IMG/VR virus record: IMGVR_UViG_3300028610_001416
Coordinates: 1-60,001 of that record
Reading direction: 5' to 3' (one strand)
Source of the DNA: a virus
DNA length: 60,001 nt
Below are positions 26,889 through 37,639 of this stretch, piece by piece (the stretch's first letter is position 1; each line of letters starts with the position of its first letter). The position numbers were made by a program, and so were the translations under genes. The notes under the pieces were generated by a model. It saw only the letters and a list, made by a program, of their open reading frames with translations. It was not told where the DNA came from and searched no databases.

Positions 26889-27239
26889 ATGTACACAGTT
26901 ACAAAAAAGATGACGATTGCTGCGGCACATCAATTAAAACTTCCGTATGAATCGAAGTGCAGTGAACAACATGGACATAATTGGATTATTGAAGTGGAAG
27001 TGGTATCTGGAATATTAACAGATTACGGTATGGTTGTAGACTTTGCTCATATAAGTGAAGTAGTGGGAAGTTTAGACCATAAGGATTTGAATGATAGGCT
27101 AACTTTCAACCCCACTGCGGAAAACATTGCAGAGTGGATATTCAAAGAGGTAAAAAGTAGTCTTGATAATCCAAGTGCAGAAGTGACAAAGGTTACTGTA
27201 CAGGAGAGTGAGGGGAATATAGCATGTTTTACCCCGTAA
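26889..27239 (+). CDS. queD: QueD: 6-carboxy-tetrahydropterin synthase
   Basis: 116 aa. The ATG at 26889 with GAGGAGATTATA upstream is chosen over an upstream start that would run through the terminator. It has the QueD/PTPS features: AAAHQL (zinc His), C-SEQ-HGHNW (catalytic Cys four residues before the His-x-His zinc pair), PTAENIAEWIF, and a Glu in the QESEGN segment. It converts dihydroneopterin triphosphate to carboxy-tetrahydropterin, the second step towards 7-deazaguanines. It overlaps queE by 16 bases. Confidence 0.9.
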   Translation: MYTVTKKMTIAAAHQLKLPYESKCSEQHGHNWIIEVEVVSGILTDYGMVVDFAHISEVVGSLDHKDLNDRLTFNPTAENIAEWIFKEVKSSLDNPSAEVTKVTVQESEGNIACFTP

Positions 27240-27844
27240 ATGAAATCTTTTATTCGATTCAGGGGGAGGGGTTTCATACTGGAAAGCCTGCTGTCTTTAT
27301 TCGATTGGCTGGTTGTAATTTGGATTGCCCTTGGTGTGATACAAATCATATCACGAAGAGTAAAATGACTCCGATTGAGATAGTAAAGAGGGTGGAGGAG
27401 CTATCAGGAAGGATGTCCTCTACTTTTATTATTTTTACAGGGGGGGAGCCGACGATTCATGCCTTGCTATCTTTATGTGTTTTATTAAGGAAACGAATAG
27501 AAAATACTTATATAGCTATTGAGACGAACGGAACTAATCCAGTTCAAATTGAAGCATTGAAAGAAACGGGCCTATTGGATTGGGTGACAGTGTCTCCAAA
27601 ATACCAAAGCCGTTGCAAATCTAAAGTCAAAAAGAGTATGGTAGAAGCAGATGAAATCAAGGTTGTGTTTGATGGAAAAATAAAGCCGCTTGATTTTGAG
27701 ATGTTGTTGGTAACCAAGTTGGATGCAGGTAAATGTTTTATCCAACCGTGCTCTGGTAAGTTTCGCAATGCTGTTGATTTTGTTTTAAAGAATCCGAAGT
27801 GGAGGTTGAGTGTGCAGATACAGAAGATTATAAATATTAGGTAA
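27224..27844 (+). CDS. queE: QueE: 7-carboxy-7-deazaguanine synthase
   Basis: 206 aa. Opening NEIFYSIQGEG is diagnostic of QueE, followed by the radical SAM cluster C31-x3-C35-x2-C38 (AGCNLDCPWCDT), FTGGEPT and ETNGT. It makes 7-carboxy-7-deazaguanine (CDG) from the QueD product. It is translationally coupled to queD by overlap and followed at 11 bases by the PRTase-FolE gene. Confidence 0.9.
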   Translation: MFYPVNEIFYSIQGEGFHTGKPAVFIRLAGCNLDCPWCDTNHITKSKMTPIEIVKRVEELSGRMSSTFIIFTGGEPTIHALLSLCVLLRKRIENTYIAIETNGTNPVQIEALKETGLLDWVTVSPKYQSRCKSKVKKSMVEADEIKVVFDGKIKPLDFEMLLVTKLDAGKCFIQPCSGKFRNAVDFVLKNPKWRLSVQIQKIINIR

Positions 27845-27854
27845 GGGAGTATCG

Positions 27855-28745
27855 ATGGAAAAGGTAGATTTAAGTTGGAATGATATTGGAATAAGAGCAC
27901 AGGCAATAGCGGATAAGATAGAGGTTAATGCAGTAAATATGAATCCTCCATTGAGATTATACGGTATTCCACGAGGAGGGGTTTATGCTGCTCAAGCTGT
28001 TTTGTCCTATATAGAGAAGGAGTCAGAGCTTGTGGAAGAGCCAGATGATAACTGTATATTCATTGATGATATTATTGATACTGGAAAGACGAGGGATGAT
28101 TTTATAGAGGCATATGAATGTCCTTTTCTTGCTCTTGTGGATAAGCGGGGAGCGGATAGGAATGTGAAGGGTGTTTGGGTTTCATTTCCTTGGGAGCGAA
28201 TGACACATGATGAAGGGCCTGTAGAGAATGTCAAAAGGCTCTTGCAGTATATTGGGGAAGACCCGGAGCGAGATGGATTGAAAGAAACTCCTCAGCGAGT
28301 TATCGATTCTTATAAGAAATTGTTTGGTGGTTACAAGCAGAAGATGGAACTAAAGGTTTTTGAGGACCCTTGCAATCAAATGGTGTTATTAAAAAATATT
28401 GAGTTTTATTCAACTTGTGAGCATCACATGCTCCCCTTCTGCGGGAAGGCTCATATAGCATATATTCCAAATGGAAAGATAATCGGGATATCTAAGTTGG
28501 TTCGTGTTCTTGAGATTTTTTCCAGGCGACTTCAAATACAAGAACGACTTTGTCATCAGGTGACGGAGTCATTGGAAAGAATGTTAAAACCTTCGGGAAC
28601 GGCTTGTGTTTTAGAAGCCCAGCATTTATGTATGCTTTGTCGAGGGGTAGAGAAACAAAGTTCAATCATGGTTACTTCCTCTTTGACAGGGGTGTTTGAA
28701 AGTAACCTGTCAACAAGAAATGAATTTATGAGGTTAATAAAATGA
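27855..28745 (+). CDS. folE: Phosphoribosyltransferase - GTP cyclohydrolase I (FolE) fusion
   Basis: 296 aa behind AAGGGAG. Residues 1-120 look like a type I PRTase (YGIPRGGVYAAQAVL; PRPP loop CIFIDDIIDTGKT). Residues about 125-296 are FolE: GEDPERDGLKETPQRV, STCEHHMLPFCGKAHIAYIP, ISKLVRVLEIFSRRLQIQE and HLCMLCRGVEKQ, with the zinc Cys and His in place. FolE starts the 7-deazaguanine pathway from GTP. The PRTase could recycle the guanine that DpdA releases, or handle a deazapurine; this is inference. Confidence 0.9.
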   Translation: MEKVDLSWNDIGIRAQAIADKIEVNAVNMNPPLRLYGIPRGGVYAAQAVLSYIEKESELVEEPDDNCIFIDDIIDTGKTRDDFIEAYECPFLALVDKRGADRNVKGVWVSFPWERMTHDEGPVENVKRLLQYIGEDPERDGLKETPQRVIDSYKKLFGGYKQKMELKVFEDPCNQMVLLKNIEFYSTCEHHMLPFCGKAHIAYIPNGKIIGISKLVRVLEIFSRRLQIQERLCHQVTESLERMLKPSGTACVLEAQHLCMLCRGVEKQSSIMVTSSLTGVFESNLSTRNEFMRLIK

Positions 28746-29065
28746 AAACTATTGTATGGGTAACAGCTCAGTTTGAGGCATTTCATAGGTGGAAGGATGC
28801 TCCGGAAGATGTTTCTTTTTTGCGAAATTACCATCGTCATATCTTTCATGTTAAATTAGGTAAAGAGGTCACTCATGGAGACAGACAGATAGAGTTTATC
28901 CAACTCAAACGAGAGCTTGAATTGTATATACGGGAAAAATTTGAGGGTGGTCGATTCGAATATTCGTGTGAGATGTTGGCCAGTGCTTTGCATGTAGAGT
29001 TTGGAGCTTATTTTGTTCAAGTCAGTGAGGATGGGGAAAATGGGGCTATAGTGCAAAGGGATTGA
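28742..29065 (+). CDS. Second QueD-like (T-fold) protein lacking the catalytic Cys
   Basis: 107 aa, ATGA overlap with the folE gene. It keeps the T-fold pattern and the zinc His set (AFHRW; NYHRHIFHV) and a QueD-like Glu segment (CEMLASAL, then SEDGENGAIV), but Leu-Arg-Asn-Tyr stands where QueD has its catalytic Cys before HxH. It is therefore unlikely to be a second CPH4 synthase. It may act on a deazapurine later in the pathway, for example in a decarboxylation step; that is a guess from context. Confidence 0.6.
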   Translation: MKTIVWVTAQFEAFHRWKDAPEDVSFLRNYHRHIFHVKLGKEVTHGDRQIEFIQLKRELELYIREKFEGGRFEYSCEMLASALHVEFGAYFVQVSEDGENGAIVQRD

Positions 29066-29066
29066 T

Positions 29067-29990
29067 ATGAGTAGAATACCGTTTAAGACGCCAGTAGATT
29101 ACTTTAAGAAAATTCTGCGTGGTAAGTATGAAAATATAAATCGGTTCAAAACTTTGCTTGGTAATAGGTGGCAAGAGTATGATTGTGATTTACATATCTA
29201 TCCTTGGACGAAGGCTCGTCCGGGGATGTTGAGTGTTGGCTGTCCAAATCAGTGTCCTTTTTGTCCTACTGCTCATTTACATAAGGGTCGTATTCACTTT
29301 GGGGATTATGAACGCATTATACCACAATATGTAGATGAGTGTATCCACTTCATGGATGAGAATTTCTTCTACAACAATATGGAAGTGGTTCTCCCATTAT
29401 TGAAAAAGTATAATATTCGATGGCTTGCAATGTCCGATTATGAAAGTATTGTTCGGGTGTTGGAAACTTTTGGGGAGTATTACCTGTATGAGTGTGGATT
29501 GAGGGTGATAGAGGTTGGGCTTGAAAATATTGTGCTATACAAAAAAGTACAAAAGGAAATTGAGACTCAGAAGATACAAATATATTATCTTAATATGACT
29601 TGCCTGCCGGAAGAGACAAAGACGTCAATCAAGGAAAATGCAGCGTGGATGGAAATGTCAAACAAACCAATTATGAATCCTATTCATTTTAATAATGGGG
29701 TGTGGTATGCTTGTGGTCAGTTTTTGTATCCATATAAAAAGATGGAGGAGAAGGGTCGATATATTGGTGGAAAGTTTGCAAGAGTTTTACCAACTTTTAT
29801 TCCCCATACCCTTCTTGTTCAAGATTATACTATTGTAGATTTGGGAAAGGTTAATTTTTACAATCAGCTTGTTTACGGGTGGAAGATATATAATCCAAAA
29901 ATGAGTGGAAACATAGGTGTCTTCATTGGGAATGACCAACAGAGGGCAGCTTGGTTATTGACTGGTATAAGATGTGGAGGAATTGTTTGA
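29067..29990 (+). CDS. Radical SAM protein of the modification cassette
   Basis: 307 aa. C59-x3-C63-x2-C66 (VGCPNQCPFCPTAHL) is a canonical radical SAM cluster motif, and HFMDENFFYNN (about 95-105) and LRVIEVGLEN (about 150-160) match the FxDDxF and GxES-type elements of B12-dependent-like radical SAM proteins. No N-terminal B12 domain is seen. It lies between the second QueD-like and the DUF488-like genes, so it may tailor CDG or the base already in DNA. No match to QueE is seen beyond the motif. Confidence 0.75.
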   Translation: MSRIPFKTPVDYFKKILRGKYENINRFKTLLGNRWQEYDCDLHIYPWTKARPGMLSVGCPNQCPFCPTAHLHKGRIHFGDYERIIPQYVDECIHFMDENFFYNNMEVVLPLLKKYNIRWLAMSDYESIVRVLETFGEYYLYECGLRVIEVGLENIVLYKKVQKEIETQKIQIYYLNMTCLPEETKTSIKENAAWMEMSNKPIMNPIHFNNGVWYACGQFLYPYKKMEEKGRYIGGKFARVLPTFIPHTLLVQDYTIVDLGKVNFYNQLVYGWKIYNPKMSGNIGVFIGNDQQRAAWLLTGIRCGGIV

Positions 29991-30322
29991 TGAATACTTC
30001 TTATTTTGCAAAATCTGGACACCATCCAAAAGCAGTGGCAATTGTTGAGTTTGCTCCTCGATTTTATAAAGGAAAGGTTTATCCGAAGTTAGCACCGAAG
30101 CCTTGGTTTCTTAGAAAGTACAGAAAAGATAGAGACGAAGTTTTCTATACCCAATATTATTGTAAGGAGGTTTTGGATAAGTTGGATGCAAAGAAGGTTT
30201 ATGAGGAGTTAGGTGCAGATGCTGTGCTGATATGTTGGGAGGGTGTGGGTAAGTTTTGCCATAGGCATATTGTGGCTAAGTGGTTATCTGCGGAGCTTGG
30301 GGTGGAGATAACAGAATTATGA
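29990..30322 (+). CDS. DUF488-like protein
   Basis: 110 aa from the ATG at 29990, which overlaps the previous stop. The pattern is TSYFAKSGHHPKAVAI, then KLAPKPWFLRKYR, then an EVLDKLDAKKVYEEL-like helix and LICWEGVGKFCHRHIVAKWL, which matches DUF488 proteins (E near FCHR). Their biochemical role is unknown; the conserved Cys-His-Arg suggests an enzyme. Its place in the cassette suggests a role in base modification. Confidence 0.7.
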   Translation: MNTSYFAKSGHHPKAVAIVEFAPRFYKGKVYPKLAPKPWFLRKYRKDRDEVFYTQYYCKEVLDKLDAKKVYEELGADAVLICWEGVGKFCHRHIVAKWLSAELGVEITEL

Positions 30323-30336
30323 GAATTTGTTCTAAT

Positions 30337-30373
30337 GGGTTAAAATTAAAGATTAGTGTAATTGTACTTATTT
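30337..30373 (+). repeat. Dispersed 37-bp motif, copy 3 (diverged)
   Basis: Begins GGGTTAAAATTAAAG and has TTAGTGTAATTGTA where other copies have TTAGTACAAAGTTA. It lies in the 113-bp gap inside the modification cassette, the only sizeable gap there. Confidence 0.45.
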
Positions 30374-30435
30374 ATATAAAAAATTGACGAGAATGGGTGT
30401 TAGATGTGTAGGATTAATAGTGAAAGGGTAAGCTT

Positions 30436-31614
30436 ATGCTTTATTATGTACCATTAGAATCTTATGAAGAAAGATATACTATGCAGTGGTCTGCTCCTAT
30501 TACAGGTTGGTTGGAACGGAATTGGATTAAGGCTGATATAAGATATGCACGAATAGATAGCACAGAAAACAGAAAAGGAGTCACTCCAATTACAACTGGG
30601 GGGGTTTTGGATACCTTAAAACGAAATAGGCATTGTTGTGACCAGGTAAACCAACTTATGGCTTTGGCTTCGACGGGAGTTGTTACAAGTAAAGATATTA
30701 TTTACTTCGACGATTTTTGGCATTTTAATATGCAGGCTTTGGCTTATCATTTTCATCAATTGGGAATAACTCCTAAGATGTTTGCCTTTTGTCATGCACA
30801 GAGTGTGGATGAATTTGATTTTACTTATCCTATGCGACATTGGATGAGGAATTTTGAAAAAGGTATAGGTAAAATCTTGGACGGTATATTTGTCAACTGT
30901 GATGTGCTTAGGAATCTTTTACAGATGGCAGAGATAGGTGTAGGTAAAATTCATGTCACGGGTCATGTCTTTTGTGAGGAAGAGGTTGAGGAGCGAATGC
31001 CAAAGGCTGGTGGTGGTAAGAGTAGGGCAAAGTTTGAGAGAAAGAATCATATTTTGTTTACAAGCAGGTGGGACACGGAAAAGAATCCTGATTTCTTTTT
31101 AAGGGTGGCAGAGCAATTGTTAAGGGTTAGGAAGGATTTGAAATTCATTATTTGCACTTCTGCAAAACGAATAGAATCGAATGATGTGGCTTTGGAGAGA
31201 TTATTGCTTAAAAAGGTGGCTGAATATCCTGGTAATATAATACTAAAGGAGGGGTTGACAAAGGAGGAATATTATGAGGAATTGTGTAAGGCTAAGATAC
31301 AGTTAAATACAGCAGACCAAGACTTTACTTCTATAGCACTATTGGAGGCAAGTGTGGCTGGTTGTTATCCGTTGTATCCTAATTTCCGTTCCTTTCCACA
31401 AGCCTTTAAGCATATGAAGGGTTACATGTACCATCACCAAGATTTGGAAGATTGTGTTTGTCAGATAAATTGGATTTTAGCACGTGAAAAAAATTGGTCT
31501 GGAGATGATATAAAGCATAGAGCTTGGATTCATAAAAGACATAATACATCTTGGGCGAGGATGATTAATATAATGTTTGGGAAGAAATTAATAGAAGTGG
31601 TTGACTATGAATAG
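30436..31614 (+). CDS. GT-B (GT4-like) glycosyltransferase
   Basis: 392 aa. The C-terminal half has the GT4 layout: NHILFTSRWDTEKNPDFFL (start of the second Rossmann domain), KFIICTSAKRI, ILKEGLTKEEYYEELCKAKI, and TSIALLEASVAGCYPL with the conserved Glu of the E-x7-E region. The N-terminal half has strand-helix units ending in FAFCHAQSVDE and GIFVNCDVL. It is placed between DUF488 and DpdA with a 7-base overlap into dpdA, which suggests it glycosylates the modified base. Donor and acceptor are unknown. Confidence 0.75.
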   Translation: MLYYVPLESYEERYTMQWSAPITGWLERNWIKADIRYARIDSTENRKGVTPITTGGVLDTLKRNRHCCDQVNQLMALASTGVVTSKDIIYFDDFWHFNMQALAYHFHQLGITPKMFAFCHAQSVDEFDFTYPMRHWMRNFEKGIGKILDGIFVNCDVLRNLLQMAEIGVGKIHVTGHVFCEEEVEERMPKAGGGKSRAKFERKNHILFTSRWDTEKNPDFFLRVAEQLLRVRKDLKFIICTSAKRIESNDVALERLLLKKVAEYPGNIILKEGLTKEEYYEELCKAKIQLNTADQDFTSIALLEASVAGCYPLYPNFRSFPQAFKHMKGYMYHHQDLEDCVCQINWILAREKNWSGDDIKHRAWIHKRHNTSWARMINIMFGKKLIEVVDYE

Positions 31615-32494
31615 AGAGCAAGATATATCTCCTTTGATTATGGATTCAGGAGCAACCTTTTTGTATAATAAATATATCAAAAAGGATACGAAGGGTGCAC
31701 CTGGAACAGCCATAAAAGATAAGCGAAAATTGGATTTCTCATTTTATGAGACAGATACGTTTTTGGATTTTCGAGAAGCCTATATAAGGTTTGTTAAAAG
31801 GTATGATAGGTATTTGTTTGCTTATGTTAATATGGATTGGATAAACAATGCAGAGGGTTCTTATAATTCTCTAAAGTATATGGAGAGGAAAGGATGCCAT
31901 CCTCTTCCTGTGTTCCATTTGGGAAATGATTCGAAGTGGTTGAAAAGGTATGTGGATGAGGGGTACGAATTTATTTGTATAGGAGGAATAACACCTAACC
32001 CATATGGGATAGTTAAGCCTCAATTGGATAAGATATGGTCTGATATCTTGACAGATTCTGTTGGCAGACCGGTGGTTAAGGTTCATGGTTTAGCTTGTAC
32101 ATCCTACAGATTGCTTAAAAGGTATCCTTGGTATAGTGTGGACTCTGCTTCTTGGACGAAGTTAGGGGCTTGGGGTGGTATTTACGTTCCACGCAAAGTT
32201 GGTGGAAGGTTTAGTTTTGATAAGCAGCCTTTTGGAATTCAAGTGTCTGAAAAATCTTCAAAGACGGGTGAAAGGGATAGACATTTATGTACGATGCCAG
32301 CAGCGGAAGGGGCTCATATAAAAGAATGGCTTCAACTTATAGGTGTTCCATTGGGGGGTAAAAAAGAGTTAGGGGTTACAAATGATTATGAAAGTAGGAT
32401 GAGAGCAAATCTTTTCTTTTTCCAAGCCATGTGTAAATCTTTACCTGATTGGCCTTGGAATTTTACAAAACCTATTAGGAAAGGATTTTTTTAA
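31607..32494 (+). CDS. dpdA: DpdA: DNA guanine transglycosylase
   Basis: 295 aa from the ATG at 31607. It has the two TGT-type Asp motifs: LIMDSGATF (D13, like DSGGF in TGT) and YSVDSASWTKLG (D179, the nucleophile region), plus FHLGND, ICIGGITPN and KVHGLACTSYRLLKRYPWYS, typical of phage DpdA. The enzyme swaps guanine in DNA for a 7-deazaguanine. No zinc site characteristic of tRNA TGT was found. It overlaps the glycosyltransferase gene by 8 bases. DpdA subfamily cannot be assigned by eye. Confidence 0.85.
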   Translation: MNREQDISPLIMDSGATFLYNKYIKKDTKGAPGTAIKDKRKLDFSFYETDTFLDFREAYIRFVKRYDRYLFAYVNMDWINNAEGSYNSLKYMERKGCHPLPVFHLGNDSKWLKRYVDEGYEFICIGGITPNPYGIVKPQLDKIWSDILTDSVGRPVVKVHGLACTSYRLLKRYPWYSVDSASWTKLGAWGGIYVPRKVGGRFSFDKQPFGIQVSEKSSKTGERDRHLCTMPAAEGAHIKEWLQLIGVPLGGKKELGVTNDYESRMRANLFFFQAMCKSLPDWPWNFTKPIRKGFF

Positions 32495-32667: not shown

Positions 32668-33701
32668 GAATTAATCGTGAAGAGTTCTTGAGTCAATTAG
32701 AGTCGGTAACACCTGGTTTATCAGCCAGAGATATTCAAGAACAGTCATCTTGTTTTGTTTTCAAAAATAAGAATATTTATACATTCAATGATGAAATAGC
32801 CTGCACTCAAAAGTCTCTCTTGTGGATTGAAGGAGCTGTACCATCGCAACCACTTCTTTCTATTCTTCGTAAACTGCGAGAGGACGAATTGGAGATTGCC
32901 CTTGGTGAGGGTACTAAGAGTATGGTACTGCTTGTTAAGGGTAAGCATAGAAAAGCAGCTATCCGAATGGAACAGGAAATTTTACTTCCTATTAAAGCGA
33001 TTGAAAAGCCAAGGGAATGGAAATCTTTACCCGCTGATTTTGCCAATGCTATTTCTATTGTTCAAACTTGTGCTGGTAGTAATGAGCATGAGTTTGCTTT
33101 GACTTGTATTCATATTGATTCGAAGTGGATAGAGGCTTGTGATAGGTTTCAGGTGGCTCGATATAAAACCAAAACTGATGTATCCAAATCTGTGTTGATA
33201 AGAAAAGATTCATTGAGGCATATTGTGTCATTGGATATGACAGAGTTTAGTGAGACACGGCATTGGATTCATTTTAGGAATTCTACTGGATTGACTTTTA
33301 GTTGTCGGCATTTTATAGAGGATTATCCTACTGAGGATGTAAAAGAGACTTTGAAGATGATGAAGGGTGAGCCGTTGAAATTGCCAAGGGGTTTGCGTGA
33401 AGCAGTTGAAAAGGCTGAGGTGTTTTCAACTGATAACGCTGAGGGTAGTAATGTCTCTGTGATGCTTAGGCCAGGCAAGTTTAAGATTACCGGTGAGGGG
33501 GCGTTGGGTTGGTTTACTGAAACTAAGAGGTCAAAGTATAGAGGTGAACCATTGCAGTTTATTATACCAACAAGACTGTTGGCGGAATTGGTAAAGCGGT
33601 ATAGTAAATGTGAAGTAACATCTACTCGCTTAAAAGTTGTTGGGGAGAAATTTGTTTATATTACTGTTTTGAGTAAGACAAAGAAAGAGGAAGATGACTA
33701 A
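32664..33701 (+). CDS. Sliding clamp (DnaN-like), long form
   Basis: 345 aa, close to bacterial beta clamps (about 370 aa). It shows the three-domain beta clamp rhythm: MRINREEFLSQLESVTPGLS at the N-terminus, an ACDRFQVARY-type segment (cf. ATDGHRL) near residue 158, FIEDYPTEDV (cf. FPDY) near residue 217, and a C-terminal FIIPTRLLAEL segment. It begins a run of replication genes with coupled overlaps. The clamp would tether the polymerase at 35443. Confidence 0.7.
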   Translation: MRINREEFLSQLESVTPGLSARDIQEQSSCFVFKNKNIYTFNDEIACTQKSLLWIEGAVPSQPLLSILRKLREDELEIALGEGTKSMVLLVKGKHRKAAIRMEQEILLPIKAIEKPREWKSLPADFANAISIVQTCAGSNEHEFALTCIHIDSKWIEACDRFQVARYKTKTDVSKSVLIRKDSLRHIVSLDMTEFSETRHWIHFRNSTGLTFSCRHFIEDYPTEDVKETLKMMKGEPLKLPRGLREAVEKAEVFSTDNAEGSNVSVMLRPGKFKITGEGALGWFTETKRSKYRGEPLQFIIPTRLLAELVKRYSKCEVTSTRLKVVGEKFVYITVLSKTKKEEDD

Positions 33702-34911
33702 AGGATTTTTCTCTGCATCGAGGGTACAAAGTCGACGGAAGACTGGACGGATACCTCAGTGCGGTTTGTGTGGTTTATATAAACATTGTGAATCACCAAA
33801 GATGCCACCGACGGGTAGGGGGCGGAAGAAGATATTAGTAGTGGCTGAAGCACCTGGTAAGAATGAGGATAGGAACAATGAACAATTGATAGGTAAGGCT
33901 GGAAAGTTTCTTCGGAAGGTTTTAAGACCGTTGGGTATTGATTTAGATTTGGATTGTTGGAAGACCAATGCAGTTATCTGTCGAAGGCGAGGGAATGCAA
34001 CACCAGAGGATTATATGATAAAGGCTTGCCGTCCTAATTTAATGAACACCATTAGGGAATATGACCCCAATGTAATTTTATTATTGGGTGGTGTTGCTTG
34101 TGAATCCTTATTGTCGGAGATATGGAAAGAAGATGATGTTGGTCAAATTAGTCGATGGGGTGGTTTTTGCATACCTTGTACCAATCCCAATGCTTGGGTT
34201 GTTCCAACTTTTCATCCGTCTTATGTTATGCGAAAGCGTAATAAGGTTTTGGATAAAATTTTTAGGGAGCATTTAAGGCTTGGGATTAAAAAAGCAAAAA
34301 GTAAACCTTGGGCGGAGGTTCCTAACTATAAAAAGCAGATTGAAATAATTACCAGACCATCACAAGCTGCTAAGATAATTAGAGAAATGACGAGGAAAGG
34401 TGGGTCAGTTGCTCCTGATTTTGAATGTAATTGTTTGAAACCAGAAGGAGAGGGGACTGAGATTGTAAGTTGTGCTCTTTGTTGGAGAGGTGAAAGAACA
34501 ATTGCCTATCCTTGGATGTATGAAGCGGTAGACGCTACCAGCGAATTGCTTAAGTCACCAATGCCTAAGATAGCAAGTAATCTAAATATGGAGAGTAGAT
34601 GGACGTGGGTGAAGTTGGGACACCGAGTTAGGAATTGGTGGTGGGATACTATGCTTGCTGCTCATGTATTGGATAACCGTCGGCATATTACTGGTCTTAA
34701 ATTTCAAGCATTCGTTTGGCTTGGGATGGAAAGTTACAATGGGCATATAGAACCATATTTGAAATCAACTAAAAGCAGTCGGTTTAATCGAATACATGAA
34801 TTGGATTTGAGAGACCTGTTGGAGTATAATGGATTGGATTCGTTTTCGGAGCATGGATTGGCAATGAAACAAATGAAAATGATGAGGAAGAGAAATGCCA
34901 AGTACAGATAA
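33694..34911 (+). CDS. Family 4 uracil-DNA glycosylase fused to a 3'-5' exonuclease
   Basis: 405 aa. Residues 1-205: Cys pair CGLCGLYKHC (23-32), VVAEAPGKNEDRNNEQLIG, LLLGGVAC and TFHPSYVMRKR are hallmarks of Fe-S family 4 UDG. Residues about 230-405: DnaQ/PolA-type exonuclease, with VAPDFECNC (motif I), PKIASNLNMES (motif II), DTMLAAHVLDNRRHITGLKF and LLEYNGLDSFSEHGLA (motif III, Y-x3-D). The exonuclease half is what the separate polymerase at 35443 lacks. The UDG would remove uracil ahead of or during replication. Confidence 0.85.
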   Translation: MTKGFFSASRVQSRRKTGRIPQCGLCGLYKHCESPKMPPTGRGRKKILVVAEAPGKNEDRNNEQLIGKAGKFLRKVLRPLGIDLDLDCWKTNAVICRRRGNATPEDYMIKACRPNLMNTIREYDPNVILLLGGVACESLLSEIWKEDDVGQISRWGGFCIPCTNPNAWVVPTFHPSYVMRKRNKVLDKIFREHLRLGIKKAKSKPWAEVPNYKKQIEIITRPSQAAKIIREMTRKGGSVAPDFECNCLKPEGEGTEIVSCALCWRGERTIAYPWMYEAVDATSELLKSPMPKIASNLNMESRWTWVKLGHRVRNWWWDTMLAAHVLDNRRHITGLKFQAFVWLGMESYNGHIEPYLKSTKSSRFNRIHELDLRDLLEYNGLDSFSEHGLAMKQMKMMRKRNAKYR

Positions 34912-35446
34912 GAAGAAAAAAGAAAAGGTTTATAAAGAAATTGTTATTGAAAGATGGTTGGCACGGGCGTTGCTTTTGTCAAAGACTGAAACCTCAGTAA
35001 GTCTAAGAATGGATGTTGTTCATTACAATGCGAAGGCTGACGAATTAGTGGCAACAGATGGTAGGGCGTTGCTTATAGTTAAGATGAAACCAATTGAGGC
35101 GTTGATACCAATAAAGTTGGCAGAGGGTGATTATGGGATTTATGGTGATAGGCTTATACAAAAAGGTGCAGACCGAAAGGAGAATGTGTTTCCAGAGTAT
35201 CAAAAGATTGTTCCTGTCAAAGCAAAGGTGATATGTTCTGGGGATATTTTTAACGGTATTATTGAATGTATGGTGAAAGGGCAGGTATATTTGAATATTT
35301 GGAAATATGCAAGTGTCTTAAAAATACTTAGTGGATTTTCTCCTTCATGGGTTTTCACTAATGATGACCCAGTGCAGCCTGTAATGATGGAAGCAGATGA
35401 TAGTAAATATGATATCAAATATATAATCATGCCAATACGCAAATGA
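34895..35446 (+). CDS. Short sliding-clamp-like protein
   Basis: 183 aa. VATDGRALLIVKM and FPEYQKIVP match the ATDGHRL and FPDY segments of beta clamps, and the end VMMEADDSKYDIKYIIMPI matches the last strand of the clamp. About one domain is missing compared with the clamp at 32664. The gene lies between the exonuclease and polymerase genes with 17- and 4-base overlaps, so it may be a polymerase-bound processivity factor. Confidence 0.65.
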   Translation: MPSTDKKKKEKVYKEIVIERWLARALLLSKTETSVSLRMDVVHYNAKADELVATDGRALLIVKMKPIEALIPIKLAEGDYGIYGDRLIQKGADRKENVFPEYQKIVPVKAKVICSGDIFNGIIECMVKGQVYLNIWKYASVLKILSGFSPSWVFTNDDPVQPVMMEADDSKYDIKYIIMPIRK

Positions 35447-36828
35447 AGCCAATAACTGACCAAGGATATAAATTATTACACGAAGGTGCCGTAGCCTTAT
35501 CGCAGGTTGAGACTAATGGGATAAGGATGGATGTTGATTACTTGAATAGGGTTATTAAAAAGACGGGTATTGAAGTCAAAGAGATATCGGATAGATTGAA
35601 ACAACATAAGATATATAGGGTGTGGAGAAAGCATTATGGTGTTAAAACAAATTTAGGTAGCAGAGAACAGTTGGGTAAGGTACTCTTTGATATAATGGAT
35701 TATCCTTGTACTTCTCGTACTGAAAAAGTCAAACGTCCAAAAGCGGATGAGGCAGCCTTGAAATTGACAGGGTTAAGGTTTGTTGATGATTACTTGTATT
35801 TGGAGAGATTGAAAAAGGCCAGAAGCACCTACTTGGTAGGTTTTTTGCGGGAGACAGTGGACGGTTTTGTCCATCCGAATTTTCCACTTAACATGGTTCA
35901 AACATATCGTGGAAGCAGCAGCAATCCAGATTTTCAGAATATAGTTAAAAAGAATCCTGAACTTTCAAAATTAATTAGGCGGGCTTTTATAGCAAGGAAA
36001 AACCATCAAATTGTTGAGATTGATTTTAAGGGGATAGAGGTTTGTTGTGCTGCCTGTTATCATAAAGACCCAGCGATGATTAGGTACATAAAAGACCCAT
36101 CGATGGATATGCACCGTGATATGGCTTGTGAATGTTATATGATAGATAAGAAGCAGGTTTCGTGGGATGCACGAGACACTTCAAAAAATATGTTTGTCTT
36201 TCCTCAACAGTATGGTGATTGGTATAAACATTGTGCTCAGAATATGTGGGATGCTATGATTGAGAGAGATATAAGGACAGTGGATGGTATAAAACTTATT
36301 AGGCATCTCAAACGAATGGGTATTACAAGTTTAGGTGATTGTGACCCAGAAGAAGAACCGGAGGAAGGAACCTTTGAATATCACATACAAGGAGTAGAAT
36401 ATGATTATTGGCATAAGAAGTTTCCAGTTTACAATCAATGGAAACAAGATTGGTATGAAGCTTATTTGGAAAAAGGATATTTCAAAACATTAACTGGATT
36501 TATAATTGACTGTTATCTTAATAGGAAACAAGTGATAAATTATCCAGTACAAGGTTCGGCGTTTCATTGGTTGCTGTGGTCGTTGATACGAATACAGAAA
36601 TTGTTGAAAAGGTACAGGATGAGGTCGTTGATTGTTGGACAGATTCACGATAGTATTGTTGGTGATGTGCATAAGAGAGAAAGAAGGGATTATTTAGATA
36701 TTGTTAAACAGGTTATTTATGAAGATATTAGGAAACATTGGAAATGGATTATTGTTCCACTGAGAGTTGATGTTGGGGTTGCTCCGGTTGGTGGTAGTTG
36801 GTATGACAAAAAGGAGGTCAAAATATGA
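35443..36828 (+). CDS. Family A DNA polymerase domain (exonuclease encoded separately)
   Basis: 461 aa. Motif A is VEIDFKGIEV (D194), motif B is KNMFVFPQQYG (about 247-257, atypical), motif C is VGQIHDSIVGD (about residues 403-413) with HDS in place of the usual HDE. The thumb and palm begin at about residue 115. No 3'-5' or 5'-3' nuclease domain is present; they are encoded at 33694 and 41928. It is the likely replicative polymerase. Confidence 0.85.
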   Translation: MKPITDQGYKLLHEGAVALSQVETNGIRMDVDYLNRVIKKTGIEVKEISDRLKQHKIYRVWRKHYGVKTNLGSREQLGKVLFDIMDYPCTSRTEKVKRPKADEAALKLTGLRFVDDYLYLERLKKARSTYLVGFLRETVDGFVHPNFPLNMVQTYRGSSSNPDFQNIVKKNPELSKLIRRAFIARKNHQIVEIDFKGIEVCCAACYHKDPAMIRYIKDPSMDMHRDMACECYMIDKKQVSWDARDTSKNMFVFPQQYGDWYKHCAQNMWDAMIERDIRTVDGIKLIRHLKRMGITSLGDCDPEEEPEEGTFEYHIQGVEYDYWHKKFPVYNQWKQDWYEAYLEKGYFKTLTGFIIDCYLNRKQVINYPVQGSAFHWLLWSLIRIQKLLKRYRMRSLIVGQIHDSIVGDVHKRERRDYLDIVKQVIYEDIRKHWKWIIVPLRVDVGVAPVGGSWYDKKEVKI

Positions 36829-37178
36829 TTTTGACTGTTAAAGAAAAGGAGCGTATTATAAATGGTTTATCCTGGATGGTTGAGGATATGAAGCATCGAC
36901 ATGACGAGATGCAAGGCACCCTTGGACAAGATAGTGCAAGTAATTACAGCCCTCAATTGACAGAGGTTTTGAGTTTGTTAAAAGCTGTAAAGGAAGTGAA
37001 TCCAGTTGAAGTGACGGTTACTCATAAAAAAGTGGTGGCTCTAAATTGCAGGCATTTTGTTTGTAGGTATAATGAGAAAGGTGTTTGTGCTTTGTCAAAA
37101 ATCACTCTTGAAAATAGTGGAAGCGTAATTATTGGTAGGTTAAATTGTGTGGAAGCAGAAGGGAAGGATGAAGGATAA
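36825..37178 (+). CDS. Hypothetical 117-aa protein with C-terminal Cys cluster
   Basis: Starts at an ATGA overlap with the polymerase gene. The N-terminal half is helical, the C-terminal half has LNCRHFVCRYNEKGVC and later LNCVEA, so four Cys and His could bind metal. Coupled to polymerase, so a replication role is possible. Confidence 0.5.
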   Translation: MILTVKEKERIINGLSWMVEDMKHRHDEMQGTLGQDSASNYSPQLTEVLSLLKAVKEVNPVEVTVTHKKVVALNCRHFVCRYNEKGVCALSKITLENSGSVIIGRLNCVEAEGKDEG

Positions 37179-37639
37179 TGCCGTTTGCATTGGTTAAGCC
37201 AGTAATTGATTTTAGTGTGAGATTACTTTGTATCAAAGTGTACCCTGGTCATAAGCGTGGATGTCCAAATTATGGTCGAAGAGAAAGCTGTCCACCAAAG
37301 CGGAATAAAATACATCAAATTATAAATCTTAGTCAGCCAATATATGCTATATGGAATATGTTTGATTTTTATAAGTATTGTCTACGAATGCGTTCTATTC
37401 ATCCACTGTGGACTGAACCTCAAGTTAGGTGTTGTCTGTATTGGCAGGGTGGTGCAAGAAAGCAGTTGCAACTTGAGATTTATAAATTCAGACAAGACCA
37501 CCCCAATCAAAAAATATTAAAAATTCCTGAAGCAACTGGGGTTAATGTGACTGCGACAATGGAAAGACTTGGAATAAAATTGGAGTGGCCTCCTGAGAAT
37601 TTTACTTATCAAGTGGCAATTGCCGGAAAGGGAGTTTAA
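37178..37639 (+). CDS. DUF2284-like metal-binding protein
   Basis: 153 aa, one-base overlaps on both sides. KRGCPNYGRRESCPPKRN is the Cys motif of a DUF2284-like Fe-S or metal-binding family (CPxYG..CPP), followed by a VRCCLYWQGGARKQ helix. The family function is unknown. It sits between the polymerase and clamp loader genes. Confidence 0.55.
   Translation: MPFALVKPVIDFSVRLLCIKVYPGHKRGCPNYGRRESCPPKRNKIHQIINLSQPIYAIWNMFDFYKYCLRMRSIHPLWTEPQVRCCLYWQGGARKQLQLEIYKFRQDHPNQKILKIPEATGVNVTATMERLGIKLEWPPENFTYQVAIAGKGV

Follow-up and report, generated by a model that had tools for sequence, protein, structure and literature searches.

A predicted viral 7-deazaguanine DNA modification cassette that lacks QueC and contains a QueD-like protein and a putative GT4-type glycosyltransferase

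Introduction

Which base does a phage place in its DNA when it encodes FolE, QueD, QueE and DpdA and lacks QueC? This question is raised by an eight-gene cassette at positions 26889-32494 of the virus record IMGVR_UViG_3300028610_001416 (IMG/VR). The whole entry, here called the window, is 60,001 bp long and is listed as linear, with both ends open. In Queuovirinae-type phages such as 9g and CAjan, the dPreQ0 and dG+ modifications depend on a FolE-QueD-QueE-QueC or Gat-QueC-DpdA set (PMC6884629). The window cassette shares with these phages FolE, QueD, QueE, a DpdA of the phrog_887 type and a location beside the genes for clamp and polymerase, but it differs in the absence of QueC and in the presence of a QueD-like protein, a GT4-type glycosyltransferase (GT), a radical-SAM-like protein and a DUF488 protein.

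We consider it probable that the cassette represents a branch of phage 7-deazaguanine DNA modification that does without QueC and whose final product carries a sugar. Eight 7-deazaguanine bases were reportedly described in phage DNA by Cui and co-workers in 2023. To our knowledge, none of the known phage 7-deazaguanine bases carries a sugar, and the known DNA sugars sit on pyrimidines. A literature search of partial coverage found no description of glycosylated 7-deazaguanine in DNA.

Results

Gene content of the cassette

All eight genes are on the plus strand and mostly overlap. An earlier note on this DNA, made from its letters alone, had called QueD, QueE, FolE and DpdA clear and had added a second QueD-like protein, a radical SAM protein, a DUF488-like protein and a GT-B glycosyltransferase; profiles, a motif and structure models recovered all of them, in the following order.

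26889..27239, + strand: QueD, 6-carboxytetrahydropterin synthase, 116 aa (PF01242, 2.8e-30; TIGR03367, 1.4e-24)
27224..27844, + strand: QueE, 7-carboxy-7-deazaguanine (CDG) synthase, 206 aa (phrog_2076, 8.3e-34; TIGR04322, 5.1e-34; CNLDCPWC)
27855..28745, + strand: phosphoribosyltransferase (PRTase)-FolE fusion (PF01227, 7.4e-70; phrog_8995, 4.8e-7)
28742..29065, + strand: QueD-like T-fold protein (phrog_17812, 2e-23; alignment, profile and model)
29067..29990, + strand: radical-SAM-like protein (CPNQCPFC; PDB profile matches AprD4, 3.6e-8, and CysS, 2.9e-5)
29990..30322, + strand: DUF488-N3a protein (PF22751, 2.2e-8)
30436..31614, + strand: GT-B glycosyltransferase, GT4-like (PF00534, 2.5e-8; model)
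31601..32494, + strand: DpdA, DNA-guanine transglycosylase, TTG start (phrog_887, 6.7e-34)

The intergenic gaps are, in order, -16, +10, -4, +1, -1, +113 and -14 bp. The fifth value is counted from the ATG of the DUF488 gene at 29990, which shares 1 nt with the stop codon of the radical SAM gene; with an alternative TTG start at 29951 this junction becomes -40 bp, and the gaps then range from -40 to +113 bp.

QueD keeps the catalytic Cys24, the zinc ligands His28 and His30, the pair Asp63-His64 and Glu106; its TIGR03367 score is just under the model cut-off, as is that of QueE for TIGR04322 under its own. QueE carries the CxxxCxxC cluster motif as CNLDCPWC. Judged by genes and motifs, FolE, QueD and QueE of the window appear to be a complete CDG-making set.

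Absence of QueC and QueF

QueC (PF06508) was searched for in the 60-kb window without a match, and the positive controls worked. The only match of the QueF model was FolE itself, below the cut-off, and neither QueF nor QueF-L of the dPreQ1 branch was found there, in line with the earlier note, which had reported no QueC or QueF in the genome. The phage QueC or Gat-QueC that defines the dPreQ0, dG+ and dADG branch is likewise absent from the window. The window also encodes terminase, portal, head, tail and replication genes; because replication, packaging, head and tail genes are all in the record, it is unlikely that QueC was merely cut off.

A convincing QueC was also missing from 45 related records, 11 of them complete phage genomes, where only five weak partial matches turned up. 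The same QueC model scored 1e-51 to 1e-59 in phages 9g, AL-2 and RHEph04, which rules out a search that is blind to phage QueC. The GT was not found in these three QueC phages. In AL-2 and RHEph04, relatives of the Queuovirinae type, a QueE-QueC-QueD-FolE-DpdA set adjoins the clamp and polymerase genes, the same position as that of the window cassette.

Linkage of the glycosyltransferase to the cassette

The GT model had a pLDDT of 93, and the PDB matches were PglA, MshA and BshA at about 1e-12. The family displayed an N-terminal LExxExRYT motif, R211/E215-K216 and D296-x7-E304, and its invariant residues include Glu8, Arg13-Tyr14, Arg211, Glu215-Lys216 and Glu304. In the E-x7-E-type motif of the window protein, the first acidic residue is Asp296 and the second is the invariant Glu304. 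By sequence and model, the protein is predicted to be a retaining GT4-type enzyme of the GT-B fold.

A scan of IMG/VR with the GT motif alone yielded 393 viral relatives. Cassette genes were counted in the best 80 loci of the 393, from which the near-twin of the window was set aside (n=79). The QueD-like gene was present in 76 of the 79 loci, always on the same strand as the GT gene. Other partners were a DpdA/TGT-like gene of one of three types (73 loci), FolE (62) and QueE (56), counts that come from contigs often cut at their ends; in two of the three loci without a QueD-like gene, the GT gene was less than 1 kb from the contig end. Many of the contigs are related, and single linkage at 80% GT identity reduced them to 15 clusters, 14 of which have the QueD-like gene.

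Among cultured phages, the GT matched in 20 records, 16 of which also have the QueD-like gene. These are Synechococcus phage BUCT-ZZ01, Xanthomonas phage X1, Acidovorax phage ACP17, the Pseudomonas PA5oct group and Sinorhizobium phage Phosso, and in most of the 16 records the genes for the GT, the QueD-like protein, a DpdA-like protein, QueE and FolE are clustered. The remaining four matches cover only 65% of the protein, and the one inspected (PhiXhv-15) is located in an amino-sugar cluster, outside a deazaguanine cassette. Scanning 84,980 cellular genomes with a motif from a seq alignment of 7 GTs returned 5 GT loci, all on contigs of metagenome-assembled genomes and all five with the same cassette. 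A role as a general phage or bacterial glycosyltransferase was ruled out on these numbers.

In many cassettes, the reading frame of the GT overlaps that of DpdA or of the QueD-like protein. The most compact cassettes have six genes. In one of them (L126; L numbers are our handles for loci), DpdA, the QueD-like protein, GT, QueD, QueE and FolE are encoded by overlapping frames within 3.7 kb, and L175, L144 and L167 are similar. The IMG/VR and cultured-phage searches combined gave 94 loci that are non-redundant at 90%, and in 50 of these sugar-type genes were found no more than about 8 kb away from the GT gene. Median offsets had first suggested that sugar-nucleotide genes adjoin the GT gene; a direct check showed that they are mostly not adjacent, and we regard them as weak support only.

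Some cassettes, among them that of BUCT-ZZ01 (NCBIfam, 7e-4), encode a second, weakly recognised glycosyltransferase, at L015:6001-7344 and near position 4913 of L102. A second sugar is possible in these cassettes.

The QueD-like protein

The QueD-like protein matched phrog_17812, a family of unannotated function, at 2e-23, and no Pfam family, including PTPS, was above cut-off. Profile comparison of the family with QueD gave 90%, and the top PDB sequence matches of the family profile were PTPS/QueD, though weak (E 0.017-0.18). The AlphaFold2 model (pLDDT 96) was most similar in the PDB to E. coli QueD (4ntk; TM 0.84-0.86). Residues His15, His31, His33, Arg48, Glu51, Ser75-Cys76-Glu77 and Glu96 are invariant in an alignment of 64 sequences. 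The protein is thus a T-fold that retains the His triad at a putative zinc site, as in E. coli QueD/PTPS. Unlike that enzyme, the window protein has no Cys at the position of the QueD catalytic Cys (CxxxHGH) and has HRH in place of HGH; its family does not conserve the Asp-His pair and has gained the invariant Ser-Cys-Glu motif. Because the family retains the zinc His triad but conserves neither the catalytic Cys of QueD nor its Asp-His, alignment and model indicate a QueD-fold enzyme with altered chemistry.

Cui and co-workers reportedly proposed DpdL as a CDG decarboxylase for phages with 7-deazaguanine in DNA (dDG). The QueD-like protein is probably DpdL-like and a CDG decarboxylase, its identity with DpdL being a lead only.

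The QueD-like gene was found in 27 cultured-phage records. Seven phages have it without the GT: phiST, MA9V-3, RHph_I1_18, D479, Bakedbeans, Ahp1 and Roos. Because of these seven, gene content suggests three phage states, namely QueC, the QueD-like protein alone, and the QueD-like protein together with the GT. In phiST (gp042, L001:9801-10580), MA9V-3 (L002:9791-10585) and D479 (L021:9695-10552), we also observed proteins with TGT-like motifs (LDNGAG, HxLGAG, STDS and similar). Encoded beside the QueD-like gene, they possibly form one more type of DpdA.

Three types of DpdA

The window DpdA is of the phrog_887 type, is homologous to the Queuovirinae DpdA and has the conserved residues Asp15, Asp79, His162 and Asp181. 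It is therefore a good candidate for the transglycosylase of a 7-deazaguanine DNA modification. The GT and QueD-like pair occurs with three DpdA/TGT types, namely phrog_887, phrog_10773 and PA5oct gp168. The phrog_10773 type matched the TGT superfamily (TIGR00449, 4.6e-7), and the PA5oct gp168 type, which carries a DSGGFQ motif, is related to it (hhalign, 95.7%). When the profiles of phrog_887 DpdA and of the phrog_10773 type were compared directly, the match was not significant; their kinship is proposed because of TGT matches, motifs and context. Since the pair is found with different transglycosylases, it travels as a unit, and we argue that it acts on the base.

Accessory and optional genes

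A feature beyond the earlier note is the PRTase domain on FolE. Residues ~1-115 of the fusion form a domain that resembles xanthine/guanine PRTases and carries the phosphoribosyl pyrophosphate (PRPP) motif CIFIDDIIDTGKTR, and residues ~120-296 are GTP cyclohydrolase I. A stand-alone PRTase is encoded near the GT in 36 of the 94 related loci, a YhhQ-family transporter in 11 and IMPDH/GMP reductase in 11. The PRTase may serve a salvage loop in which guanine freed by the DpdA exchange would be converted to GMP and then to GTP, the substrate of FolE.

The three Cys residues of the CPNQCPFC motif in the radical-SAM-like protein are invariant among 7 relatives. Relatives in L005, L105, L110, L113, L123 and L161 are encoded between the QueD-like gene and the GT, or between FolE and DpdA. 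One of the PDB profile matches listed above, AprD4, is a sugar-acting enzyme. Full-length relatives resemble B12-type methyltransferases, and the one in L110 matched the P-methyltransferase PhpK at 1e-14. An N-terminal domain of the cobalamin-binding type was not found in the proteins of the window, L005 and L105; the relatives in L110, L113, L123 and L161 have an extra N-terminal domain. By sequence, the window protein is related to the B12-type radical SAM enzymes but truncated. In the near-twin contig IMGVR_UViG_3300009788_003336 (L004:8001-8920), the gene is present as two overlapping frames (95% and then 100% identity), owing to a frameshift or to faulty assembly.

No match to the radical SAM gene was found in cultured phages, and it is an optional tailoring extra that occurs in a few relatives. 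In its place between the QueD-like gene and the GT, L107 (6289-6900) and L026 (6752-7992) have a class I (CmoB/UbiG-like) methyltransferase and a P-loop protein; the three genes look like possible alternative tailoring steps for base or sugar. With a single-sequence profile, DUF488 was found in none of the related cassettes except the near-identical contig. It is private to the window phage and its near-twin among the loci seen, and nothing links it to the pathway. The earlier proposal that a tailoring set replaces QueC and QueF and yields a possibly glycosylated base is strongly supported by the comparison of loci. In hundreds of viral contigs, and in several cultured phages that lack a convincing QueC, the GT and QueD-like genes accompany DpdA, FolE and QueE as near-obligate partners. 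The optional radical SAM protein and the private DUF488 set limits to the proposal.

Discussion

In the pathway that we propose, FolE, QueD and QueE would convert GTP to CDG. The QueD-derived T-fold enzyme would take the place of QueC and act on CDG, most likely by decarboxylation to 7-deazaguanine. DpdA would then exchange guanine in the phage DNA for 7-deazaguanine, with release of guanine, and the GT4-type enzyme would glycosylate the base after its insertion, or else while it is still free. Such a base would keep host restriction enzymes, and probably further nucleases, from cutting the DNA. In the window phage, base or sugar may also gain a group, or have one changed, through the radical-SAM-like protein. 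Gene content, conservation, predicted folds, linkage and the lack of QueC are observations, whereas each reaction beyond CDG, the acceptor atom, the identity of the sugar and the protection are inferred.

Several points weigh against this pathway. We found no chemical or enzymatic data on the window phage or its relatives in the accessible literature, and gene linkage cannot prove that DNA is the acceptor of the GT. The decarboxylase role of the QueD-like protein goes back to what one study reportedly proposed for DpdL. Sugar genes are mostly not beside the GT, belong mainly to the group with PA5oct-type DpdA and could serve other purposes. A bare C7-H leaves no hydroxyl or amine for ordinary O- or N-glycosylation; C-glycosylation (or another atom), or a different reaction of the QueD-like protein, is therefore needed. 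In the compact six-gene cassettes, the GT4-type enzyme might glycosylate the electron-rich C7 of 7-deazaguanine directly, giving a C-glycoside with no hydroxymethyl handle and the first C-glycosylated purine in DNA, a proposal that we regard as doubtful.

The base could instead be only dDG (or dCDG), with the GT acting elsewhere, for example on a virion protein or a host surface glycan. Phages with the QueD-like gene and without the GT show that the QueD-like product can stand alone, and the distant relatives in PhiXhv-15 belong to a sugar cluster and to no deazaguanine cassette. However, loci found by the GT sequence alone nearly always have the QueD-like gene, as do the five cellular loci, and overlap of the GT with DpdA or the QueD-like gene, together with its absence from the QueC phages tested, is unexpected for a role on structural proteins; we consider this explanation unlikely. 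The chemistry of the acceptor favours another one, in which the GT acts on the C7 carboxylate of CDG, so that an acyl glycoside is formed, and the QueD-like protein does something else, such as carrying the base: CDG would offer an oxygen nucleophile, and the decarboxylated base none. We find it quite improbable, since ester glycosides are chemically labile and the invariant His triad, Arg, Glu, Ser-Cys-Glu and second Glu of the QueD-like protein look catalytic.

Many bacteria encode QueC and QueF. If the host supplied QueC (and QueF), preQ0 or preQ1 would enter the DNA and the GT would glycosylate the aminomethyl group or a derivative, an amine being an ordinary GT acceptor. A contribution of the host has been suggested for phages whose only gene of this kind is DpdA (PMC6884629). 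In the loci studied here, FolE, QueD and QueE are kept, QueC is consistently missing and the QueD-like partner is kept, which suggests a branch at CDG and makes host supply very improbable. Homologues of FolE, QueD and QueE also serve natural-product pathways such as that of toyocamycin, and the cassette might make a free 7-deazapurine small molecule and no DNA base. This is hardly credible with a DpdA/TGT-like gene in nearly all GT loci and with the window cassette beside clamp and polymerase genes, as in the DNA-modifying Queuovirinae.

The branch through CDG to a sugar-bearing base, which we favour, can be compared with known systems. A QueC-independent route from CDG is reportedly shared by the DpdL/dDG phages, and phiST-type phages have the QueD-like family without QueC; the DpdL scheme of Cui and co-workers is said to contain no glycosyltransferase. 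T-even and related phages carry glucosyl-hydroxymethylcytosine (hmC), arabinosyl-hmC and the Thanatos pentose (PMC13216743, PMC6024577, PMC12838424). Like the proposed window system, they use a phage glycosyltransferase that puts a sugar on a DNA base, with anti-restriction effect, but the acceptor is a modified cytosine, whereas the window phage would use 7-deazaguanine and a GT4-like enzyme with closest folds BshA, MshA and PglA. Glycosylated queuosine (manQ, galQ) is found in eukaryotic tRNA. There too a sugar is carried by a 7-deazaguanine in nucleic acid, but the nucleic acid is tRNA, it is the cyclopentenediol of queuosine that bears the sugar, and preQ1 and later steps, absent in the window, are needed.

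With a sugar-decorated deazaguanine in it, phage DNA could escape the defence systems of bacteria. If the proposal is true, the module of QueD-like protein, GT and DpdA, seen in ~400 viral contigs, makes a common and overlooked anti-restriction base, which cultured phages of Synechococcus, Pseudomonas, Xanthomonas, Acidovorax and Sinorhizobium would also carry. Restriction enzymes, and perhaps sequencing and Cas tools as well, would then fail to see guanine sites in such genomes. A role is thereby proposed for the unannotated families phrog_17812 and phrog_10773 and for one GT family.

Genes next to the cassette

The cassette is followed on its 3' side by a clamp gene (32664), a uracil-DNA glycosylase (UDG)-exonuclease fusion (33694) and a family A polymerase gene (35443). 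The family A DNA polymerase is split (33694-36828): a UDG domain is fused to a 3'-5' exonuclease (PF03167, 2.5e-20; PF01612, 5.5e-6), the polymerase-domain protein is separate, and a 183-aa gene without assigned function is located between the two. A short match to DUF2284 (predicted metal-binding), 6.8e-8 across 22 residues, was observed at 37178-37639.

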